Shown: one piece after another, positions 31,456 to 37,267 of the stretch
How the letters are laid out: every line of letters starts with the position of its first letter
Position numbering within the stretch: the first letter of the stretch is position 1
Assembly: GCA_029934705.1 (NCBI GenBank)
Contig: JAOZLS010000006.1
Coordinates: 1-37,267, forward strand
Length of the DNA: 37,267 nt
DNA from: Bacteroidales bacterium
Lineage (GTDB): Bacteria; Bacteroidota; Bacteroidia; Bacteroidales; JAADGE01
Direction of reading: 5' to 3'
Program-made: the position numbers and the translations under genes
Notes under the pieces: generated by a model
Database searches by the model: none
The model's input: only the letters and a program-made list of their open reading frames with translations
What the model was told of the DNA's origin: nothing

Positions 31456-33558
31456 TTATTCAACGTTTCCTGTTACTTTATTTATAATTTCTGTTGCAAT
31501 TTTTTCGGTTACTCCTTCATAATGTGAAAATTCCATTGTTGAAGTTGCTCTTCCAGAACTTAGTGTTCTTAAAACTGTAACATATCCAAACATTTCAGAT
31601 AAAGGTACTGTGGCTGTTACTGCTTTTACATTAAGCTTGTCGGCAGTTCCTGCAATACGTCCTCGTCTTCTGTTTACATCTGATATAATATCACCCATAT
31701 TTTCTTCTGGAGTTAATACCTCCATATTCATTATAGGTTCCATAATAACAGCTCCTGCTTTTTTTGTTGCATGTTTAAATGCTTGCACTGCTGCTATTTC
31801 AAACGAAAGAGCGTCGGAGTCAACATCGTGGTATGAACCGTCAAAAAGTGTTACTTTTAAGCTATCCATTGGAAAACCGGCTAAAGGACCATTCTTCATT
31901 GCTGTAGTAAATCCTTTTTTTACTGCTGGTATAAATTCTTTTGGAACTGCTCCTCCTCTTATTTTGTCAACAAATTGTAGTCCAACTTCATCTTCGTCAG
32001 CTGGTTCAATTATAACGCTAATGTCTGCAAATTTACCTCTACCACCTGATTGCTTTTTGAAAGTTTCTCGGTGTTCTATTGATTTAGTAATTGCTTCTTT
32101 ATATGCTACTTGAGGTCTTCCTTGATTACATTCTACAGAGAACTCTCTTAGTAATCTATCAATTAAGATTTCAAGATGTAATTCACCCATTCCAGAAATA
32201 ATTGTTTGTCCTGAAGTTGGGTCAATAGTAACAATAAAAGTAGGATCTTCTTCGGCAAGCTTATGTAGTGCTATACCTAATTTGTCTAAATCTTTTTTAG
32301 ATTTTGGTTCAACTGCTATACCAATAACTGGTTTAGGAAATGAAATTGTTTCTAGAACAACTTGCTTGTTTTCAGCAGATAATGTATCTCCTGTAACAAC
32401 ATCCTTAAAGCCAACTACTCCGCAAATGTCTCCAGCTCTAACTTCGTCTTTCTTCATTTGCTTATTAGCATGCATTTGATATATATGCGATATTCTTACT
32501 TTTTGTCGAGTTCTAGGATTATAAACAAATGATCCTGATTTCAACACACCTGAATATACTCTAACATAAGCTAATCTTCCGACAAATCTATCAGTCGCTA
32601 TTTTAAATACGATTGCTGAAAGAGGTTCGTCAACATCTGGTTTTCTAATAACCTTTTCGTCGTTTTTAGGATTTATTCCTTCAACAGGTGCTATGTCAGT
32701 TGGTGCTGGTAAAAATTCTACAATTCCGTCTAGTAAGCGTTGAATTCCTTTATTTTTAAATGCAGAACCGCACATAACAGGAATAATTCTTCTATCAAGA
32801 ACTGCTTTTCTAGTTGCAGCCATAAAATCTTTTTCAGAAATAGAATCTCTATCGTCAAAAAATCTTTCAAGCATTTCTTCGTCTTGCCCTACGATTTCTT
32901 CAATAAGATTTTCTCTCCATTTTTCAGTCTCTTCTTCCAGTTCTTCAGGAATATCAACGTATTTGTAGTCAACTCCAACTTTGTCGTCTTCGTGCCAAAC
33001 AATTGCTTTTCTTTCAATTAAATCAATAATTCCAATAAAATCGTCTTCCGATCCTATAGGAATTTGAACTGGTACTGCGTTGCCACCAAGTCTTTCTTTA
33101 ATTTGATCTACAACGGAAAAATAATCTGCTCCTATGCGATCCATTTTATTAACGAAAGCTATTCGCGGCACTTCATATTTATCGGCTTGTCTCCAAACTG
33201 TTTCAGACTGAGGTTCAACACCACCTACAGCACAAAATACAGCAACGGCTCCGTCAAGTACTCTTAAAGATCTTTCAACCTCAACAGTAAAATCAACGTG
33301 CCCTGGAGTATCGATAATATTAATTTTATATTTATCGTCGTTAAAGTTCCAGTAGGTGGTTGTAGCAGCAGATGTTATAGTAATACCTCTTTCTTGCTCT
33401 TGTTCCATCCAGTCCATAGTGGCTGCGCCGTCATGAACTTCTCCAATTTTATATGTTACACCGGTATAAAACAATATACGCTCAGTAGCGGTTGTTTTTC
33501 CTGCATCAATGTGTGCCATGATGCCGATGTTTCTCGTATGTTTTAAATCTGTTGCCAT
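31456..33558 (-). CDS. fusA: Elongation factor G
   Basis: 700 aa canonical [29 protein letters not shown], full domains I-V. Confidence 0.99.
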
Positions 33559-35005: not shown

Positions 35006-35036
35006 TTGAAAGTTAATGTTTTTTTTTTTATGTTTG
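35006..35036 (+). promoter_or_regulatory. Promoter of the EF-G-like gene
   Basis: TTG (35006-35008), 20-nt spacer, TATGTTTG (35029-35036), 46 bp upstream of ATG at 35083. Confidence 0.7.
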
Positions 35037-35082: not shown

Positions 35083-36492
35083 ATGAAAGTTTATAAAACA
35101 GGAGACATACGAAATGTAGCATTAATTGGAAATGCAGGGTCAGGTAAATCTACTTTTGCTGAAAATATGCTACTTAAAGGCGGTAAGATTTCTCGAAGAG
35201 GAACAATAAATGCAAAAAGCACAGTATCGGATTATAGAGCAGTTGAACACGAGCAAGGTGGTTCTGTATATTCATCAGTAATGAATACTGAATGGGAAGG
35301 AGTTAAGATAAACATTCTTGACAGCCCAGGTGCTATAGATTTTGTTGGAGGAGCGGTTTCGTCTCTTTCAATGGCAGACACTGCTATTATGTTTATAAAC
35401 TCACAAAATGGTATTGAAGTAGGTACAGAAATTCACTGGAGACAAGCCCAGAAATTAAATAAGCCTATAATGATAGTTGCAAATCATTTGAACCATGATA
35501 AAACAAATTTTGAAAAAACGATTGACGAAGCTAAAGAAAAATTTGGTAAAGGTGTTATATTAGTACAATACCCAGTTAACCAAGGTCCTGATTTTAACGC
35601 CATTATTGACGTTATTATGAGAAAAATGTACACTTGGGATAAAGATGGTGAAAATTATAAGGAAACTGATATTCCTGAAGAAGAAGTAGAAAAAACTGAA
35701 AAAATTAGAAGTGCTTTAACTGAAGCTGCTGCTGAGAGCGATGACGCTTTAATGGAAAAATTCTTTGAAACAGAGACATTAACTGAGGATGAAATGAGAG
35801 CTGGTATTCTTGCGGGAATACAAAATGGTGAGCTATATCCTGTAATGTGTGCTGCAGCAGACAAAAACATGGGTACTAAAAGAATTTTAGATTTCATTAA
35901 AAATGCAATGCCTTCACCAGATATTGCAAAGCCATCGATTACTAAAGAAGGCGAAGAAATTAAATTTGACTCTGAAGGGAAAAAATCAATTTTTATATTT
36001 AAAGTTTCTATAGAGGAACACTTAGGCGAAGTTCTTTATTTTAGAGTAATGTCTGGAACTATTTCTGAAAGTGAAGACTTAATAAATACAATTTCAAACT
36101 CGAAAGAACGTATTTCTCAAATTTTTGTATCAAACGGTAAAACAAGAGAAAACGCTACAACAATGCATGCTGGAGATATTGGAGCCACTGTAAAATTAAA
36201 ATCGACAAAAGGAGAGCATACACTTGCTGAAAAAGGCACCGATTATATTTTTGAAAACATTAAATATCCAAATCCTAAATATAGAGCTGCAATTAAAGCT
36301 ATTGATGAATCTGATGAAGAAAAATTAGGTGAATATTTACACAGATTAAGAGACGAAGATCCTACTTATATTCTTGAATATTCAAAAGAATTAAAGCAAT
36401 TAATTTTGCACTCACAAGGAGAACACCATTTGAATACATTAAAATGGCACTTAGACAATATTTATAAAATTCAAACAGAATTCATTTCATAA
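35083..36492 (+). CDS. EF-G paralog (EF-G2-like), short form containing only domains I-III
   Basis: 469 aa aligning with the fusA product from residue 1 to the end of domain III; P-loop GNAGSGKS, switch II DSPGAIDF, G4 NHLN; stop codon where domain IV should begin. Confidence 0.88.
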   Translation: MKVYKTGDIRNVALIGNAGSGKSTFAENMLLKGGKISRRGTINAKSTVSDYRAVEHEQGGSVYSSVMNTEWEGVKINILDSPGAIDFVGGAVSSLSMADTAIMFINSQNGIEVGTEIHWRQAQKLNKPIMIVANHLNHDKTNFEKTIDEAKEKFGKGVILVQYPVNQGPDFNAIIDVIMRKMYTWDKDGENYKETDIPEEEVEKTEKIRSALTEAAAESDDALMEKFFETETLTEDEMRAGILAGIQNGELYPVMCAAADKNMGTKRILDFIKNAMPSPDIAKPSITKEGEEIKFDSEGKKSIFIFKVSIEEHLGEVLYFRVMSGTISESEDLINTISNSKERISQIFVSNGKTRENATTMHAGDIGATVKLKSTKGEHTLAEKGTDYIFENIKYPNPKYRAAIKAIDESDEEKLGEYLHRLRDEDPTYILEYSKELKQLILHSQGEHHLNTLKWHLDNIYKIQTEFIS

Positions 36493-36632
36493 AAAAAGAA
36501 AAACTAAATAGTAAAATTATTGTTAACTGTTTCATTATTGTTGGTTTTTAGAAAAAAATAATTGTATATCACTAAAAACAACGAAATTGTATTAATATTA
36601 TTACAATAATGTATAAATTCTAAATTAAAGTT

Positions 36633-36902
36633 TTATAAATAGGGTAAATATTCTCTGTCAGTATTTAGAATATGACCAATAAGCCAATTTTTTAAAAAAG
36701 TTAGCATTTCTATAAAAGTTTTATGACTACATTCTTTATAAGTGTTCTGAAACTCAATAACTTTTTCTTTAAACTCAGTATGGATTTTGAGATGCTCTTT
36801 GGTAAAAGGATATTTACTGTTCTTAAAAAGCTTTTCTTCTGTTATAAAATGATATTCGGAATATTTTATTAAATCATTAATAATAATATGCTTTACTGCC
36901 AA
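36633..36902 (-). pseudogene. N-terminally truncated bacteriohemerythrin-like protein
   Basis: YHFITEEKLF, HLKIHTEF, WLIGHILNTDREYLPYL keep the helix B-D metal ligands; helix A with its His ligand is absent and the only start is TTG. Confidence 0.65.
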
Positions 36903-36943
36903 ATATTGTGATGCTGTAACTAAAAAAAGAGTAGAAATATGAA

Positions 36944-36973
36944 TTTTATGAAAAAATCATATTTTTCATAAAA
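36944..36973. repeat. Perfect 12-bp inverted repeat with 6-nt loop
   Basis: TTTTATGAAAAA-atcata-TTTTTCATAAAA. Confidence 0.85.
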
Positions 36974-37099
36974 ATTTCTCACATCTCTTTAAAGATATTG
37001 AAATTTTGAGCAAAAAAGTAAAAAAAGAACATAAGAATAGTAGTAATACCTAAAAATAGCATATTGTAATGACACTGAAATTATTACTTGCTCATATCC

Positions 37100-37267
37100 T
37101 TAAATATATACAAGTTCTTCATAGGTTTTGAAAAGATTTTTAAATCTAGGATAAGATTGATTATCTGCTAAAGAACACTCCATCATTTCCTCTATTTTTA
37201 CTTGTTTAAATAAATTTTTAAATCTAAACCAGTTTAAATAATTATCTAGGTATTTTGTAGAAACACC
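37100..37267 (-). mobile_element. C-terminal fragment of an insertion-sequence transposase (IS1595-like suspected), running off the window end
   Basis: Open minus frame from the window edge: GVSTKYLDNYLNWFRFKNLFKQVKIEEMMECSLADNQSYPRFKNLFKTYEELVYI*; the GVxTKYLxNYLxWFR pattern resembles transposase C-termini. Confidence 0.5.

Follow-up and report, generated by a model that had tools for sequence, protein, structure and literature searches.

The window analysed here, that is, the whole of a 37,267-bp contig of a Bacteroidales draft genome (G000:C211:1-37267), carries near its 3′ end an EF-G paralog that stops at the boundary between domains III and IV. The question raised by this locus is whether such a gene encodes a functional short form, or whether it is what is left of an ordinary gene after a recent 3′ deletion; the first-pass annotation had allowed for both. 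The second possibility gained support from relatives in which the gene is full length, while no positive evidence was obtained for the first, be it as a stalk binder, a modulator of hibernation or recycling, or a competitor. The coordinates of the relevant features are summarized in Table 1.

Table 1. Features at the 3′ end of the window that bear on the truncated gene.
Feature	Coordinates	Strand	Basis
Bacteroidota-type promoter 5′ of fusA2 (TTG, 35006-35008; TATGTTTG, 35029-35036)	35006..35036	+	direct reading
fusA2′: EF-G2 domains I, II and III, 469 codons, truncated	35083..36492	+	Pfam and NF058620 profiles; orthologs of relatives full length
Junction: last bases homologous to congener fusA2; DNA beyond unrelated to fusA2	36487..36496	+	BLASTN to G001 stops at 36496
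Hemerythrin-like gene fragment without N-terminal third, upstream side running into IS end	36633..36902	-	PF01814, 38-127, E 5.8e-10
End of IS1595-type element, contig stops within; transposase C-terminus 37100-37267	36889..37267	-	repeat match and NF033547

The reading frame of the gene is uninterrupted from an ATG start to a TAA stop. Pfam profiles placed GTP_EFTU at residues 8-277 of the product, EF-G domain II at 302-376 and EFG_III at 396-466, and neither EFG_IV nor EFG_C matched the 469-aa protein. With the profile of the Bacteroidota EF-G2 family (NF058620, EFG2_Bacteroid), residues 1-468 aligned with profile positions 1-468 of 717 (652 bits, E 1e-195), which confirms both the position and the domain content first assigned to the gene. 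By this profile the protein is of the EF-G2 type in domains I-III, and it is 74% identical to the ortholog of a congener; its score lies below the curated cut-off for full-length members (1000 bits), domains IV-V being found instead on another contig, C482 (see below). The alignment with the window's own canonical EF-G (31456-33558) over domains I-III, also proposed in the first pass, was recovered at 32% identity over 457 residues. Bacteroidota EF-G2 (fusA2; BT2167 of B. thetaiotaomicron) is colinear with the window protein over residues 1-468 and shares its switch-I region, but has domains IV and V, both of which are missing from the window frame. RF3 (prfC), a translational GTPase that naturally lacks EF-G domains IV-V, resembles the window protein in this respect; however, the scores obtained with its profiles were far below the cut-offs (124.5 bits vs 467, more exactly 466.95, for TIGR00503; 155.9 vs 473 for NF001964), and this identity was rejected.

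The good promoter that had been noticed 5′ of the gene is indeed present. Its TATGTTTG element is of the TAnnTTTG type, and together with the TTG we take it to represent the Bacteroidota TTG/TAnnTTTG promoter consensus. In the aligned upstream stretch of the congener gene (L007), TTG and TATTTTTG occupy matching positions, which indicates that the promoter was inherited along with an ordinary gene.

An EF-G2 ortholog was found in 55 of 59 related genomes (the window's own excluded), at 43-74% identity and, where the contig allows, with an open frame of 714-763 codons. Across the order, 356 of 393 genomes matched EF-G2 at E <= 1e-95 (the other 37 gave no match), and among the matches listed all frames except that of the window were ~700-800 codons long or were cut by a contig end. 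A survey of 80 named GTDB loci included 73 genes whose 3′ end lies within the locus; their median length was 718, and the shortest (L068) measured 596. Shorter frames were considered as possible I-III-only relatives and rejected: that of G016 (491 codons) stops at the end of its own contig, that of G398 (549 codons) likewise runs into the end of its contig, and that of L068 is interrupted by a stretch of Ns, i.e. an assembly gap. In G029 the gene is split over two contigs. Neither among the matches listed in the 393 order genomes nor in the 80 GTDB loci was there a second I-III-only EF-G or an independent genome that retained this truncated length. The orthologs thus speak against a functional short form, since at the homologous rpsL-fusA2 locus the relatives carry a full-length gene.

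The gene lies near rpsL in 65 of the 80 GTDB loci, as it does in the window, and this place of fusA2 is therefore ancestral. In the congener (G001) the gene order is rpsL - fusA2 (718 aa) - lptG - enolase; the window shows the same rpsL side upstream, whereas downstream a hemerythrin gene and an insertion sequence replace lptG. We consider it probable (roughly 0.7) that the window gene is a recently truncated copy of an ordinary EF-G2 gene, full-length EF-G2 probably being supplied by a second copy. What remains would be the first two thirds of a normal Bacteroidales fusA2 gene, located in its ancestral place beside rpsL-rpsG-fusA.

Protein homology to EF-G2 stops at codon 468, and a search of the assembly revealed no trace of domains IV-V 3′ of the fusA2 stop on this contig, which ends 775 bp further on. 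The hemerythrin homologs of relatives are ~140 aa long. The IS end that closes the window is 99% identical over 293 bp to C476:7995-8287, and the same end occurs on C394 and C53; the transposase tail matched the C-terminal 18 positions of NF033547 (transpos_IS1595; E 9e-4) and had no match in a plasmid search. The hemerythrin fragment and the IS end past the stop show that the truncation lies where the DNA is rearranged and rich in repeats. In the genome analysed, or in a fraction of the population sampled, a rearrangement probably joined codon 468 to unrelated DNA with the loss of domains IV-V, the joined DNA presumably being a hemerythrin gene itself interrupted by the IS1595-type element. 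A rearrangement beside the insertion sequence was probably the cause of the cut.

When the assembly was searched with domains IV-V of the congener, these domains were found at G000:C482:33-779 (84% identity). On this contig of 2695 bp the EF-G2 frame is open to the contig start and corresponds to NF058620 positions 461-717; it is followed, as in G001, by a full lptG gene (PF03739; 76% DNA identity over 1974 bp), the only full-length lptG of the assembly. The identity of the C482 domains to G001 (84.0%) is close to that expected from domains I-III of the window (83.4%), and the identity residuals against 28 relatives were all within ~two standard deviations. Repeats in the tail of C482 occur at 24 places in G000, at 1 in the congener and at 0 in three further relatives. 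The abundance of these repeats in G000, the sole full lptG and the matching divergence make it most likely that C482 belongs to the same organism as the window; for the same reasons, its origin from a contaminating sibling organism is less likely.

Short interspersed repeats of ~100-180 bp, 82-94% identical, were detected with the query L040:1979-2695 on C482, C400, C405, C510, C403 and other contigs of G000. This repeat family is almost absent from the congener, and the contigs of G000 tend to end in the repeat.

The first-pass annotation had also advised looking for a second full-length EF-G2 elsewhere in the genome. Domains IV-V of such a putative copy lie on C482, but the only EF-G2 I-III match in the assembly is the window gene itself. 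The bin lacks the 5′ half of the copy found on C482; the contig that carries it was perhaps too short for binning. The first ~30 bp of C482 overlap codons 457-468 of the window fusA2 and are not identical to them (ATGTTTATAAAATTAAAACTGAATTTATTGCTCC vs ATATTTATAAAATTCAAACAGAATTCATTTCATAA): there are 4 base differences, which are codon-consistent (I/V, Q/K and two silent). A single gene merely split over two contigs was rejected as the sole explanation on account of this mismatch. In addition, a second lptG tail (the last 16 codons; 69 bp, 87% identical to C482) is present on C394 (L151, 2943-3081), where it directly adjoins the IS end in which the window also terminates. The non-identical overlap (only ~30 bp long) and the second lptG tail (C211 and C394 being known as separate contigs) point to two fusA2-lptG copies or alleles, the one on C482 apparently complete on its 3′ side and the other apparently broken (C211, perhaps C394). 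We infer that the two alleles share a single cell, as opposed to belonging to two different strains. The missing half would then persist on C482 as a divergent copy, still linked to lptG, from which the cell would obtain full-length EF-G2 and LptG; the 5′ part of this copy is probably unassembled or unbinned.

The same observations bear on an artefact of assembly or binning, in which there would be one intact fusA2-lptG locus with a false join past 36490, or a MAG mixing two strains or species. We regard this as improbable. In its favour, the genome is a 519-contig draft, the contig ends within a repeat 0.8 kb past the junction, the two halves of one gene are on separate contigs of the same bin, and domains I-III show no decay (see below). 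However, the codon-consistent differences at codons 457-468 are not those of one allele, the junction (~36490) stands ~390 bp off the IS repeat, and a second allele of the lptG tail exists.

It is very unlikely that EF-G2 has been lost from this organism through a rearrangement that split the gene and left the window and C482 pieces as remnants. The assembly does contain just one I-III piece and one IV-V piece, and 37 of the 393 genomes of the order lack a match at E 1e-95; moreover, the EF-G2 of Bacteroides (B. thetaiotaomicron), an alternative translation factor required in gut colonisation, is dispensable for laboratory growth (PMC6989115). Against such a loss, the diverged overlapping codons suggest two copies, the sequence 5′ to C482 is simply not in the assembly, and the IV-V half is also free of decay, with 1 deviation at sites that are invariant in 28 full-length relatives.

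At such invariant sites the I-III protein of the window has 0 deviations, and relaxed selection on the remaining domains, which had been raised in the first pass, was not seen. Relative-rate tests against the congener were not significant with 7 of 8 outgroups; the eighth, L027, gave a chi2 of 13. Pseudogene decay of domains I-III was rejected on both counts, at the invariant sites and as a rate excess with 7 of the 8 outgroups. These domains were hence constrained normally until very recently. The lack of decay implies that the cut is recent or that it is an assembly junction; it would be expected of a short form under constraint just as much as of a very recent cut or an assembly error, but the survey of relatives makes such a short form unlikely.

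A maintained I-III-only EF-G2, binding the ribosomal GTPase centre as a competitor or modulator, is likewise very unlikely. It would agree with the intact frame, the conserved promoter, the constraint on domains I-III and the coincidence of the cut with a domain boundary, as well as with the finding that removal of domains 4/5 leaves EF-G able to hydrolyse GTP on the ribosome, although tRNA movement is then extremely slow (PMC4490557). Nevertheless, no second example occurred among the matches listed in the order survey or in the GTDB loci, the new 3′ end runs into an IS-interrupted hemerythrin gene, and the assembly has domains IV-V on another contig. The engineered EF-G (PMC4490557) has the same kind of truncation as the window protein, but it is a laboratory construct derived from canonical EF-G, whereas the window protein is an EF-G2; B. 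thetaiotaomicron EF-G2 is described as promoting translation and translocation without GTP hydrolysis in passages of PMC12775393 and PMC10994844 that cite Han et al. Since EF-G lacking domains 4/5 barely moves tRNA, a I-III product is not expected to replace EF-G2.

Returning to the recently truncated copy, its product would be expressed from the promoter that came with the gene and, by analogy with the engineered EF-G, could bind ribosomes without efficient translocation. By the same analogy, the truncated gene has most likely become a pseudogene recently and serves no function of its own. The least likely of the readings considered here is that the 469-residue protein is expressed and has been retained to serve full-length EF-G2 from the second copy as a dominant-negative or regulatory partner, binding the ribosomal factor site without translocating. 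Neither a natural domain IV-less EF-G2 nor a natural truncated EF-G was found in the literature searched. The gene is most likely an ordinary truncation specific to this lineage and not a novel type of short factor; an assembly junction is the less likely alternative.

The locus has little import beyond this genome, but it serves as a warning: in fragmented MAGs, rearrangement or assembly can produce a clean stop at a domain boundary, and the other contigs should be searched for the missing half before any new protein class is claimed. A short form that proved to be real and maintained would constitute a naturally occurring EF-G2 without domain IV and would offer a direct handle on domains I-III acting alone.

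The window protein and its family relatives have the same degenerate G4 motif, NHL(D/N). At residues 134-137 of EF-G2 in the relatives printed, NKxD reads NHLD or NHLN (once NHVD), which indicates that the change in guanine recognition is shared across the family and not peculiar to the window protein. Among solved structures, PDB 7uvp / 8dmf is the closest to the window protein (E 4e-150; the best EF-G structure gives 6e-76). It carries the label ‘Tetracycline resistance protein TetQ’; it comprises 718 residues, is colinear with EF-G2 and looks like an EF-G2 under a wrong label.
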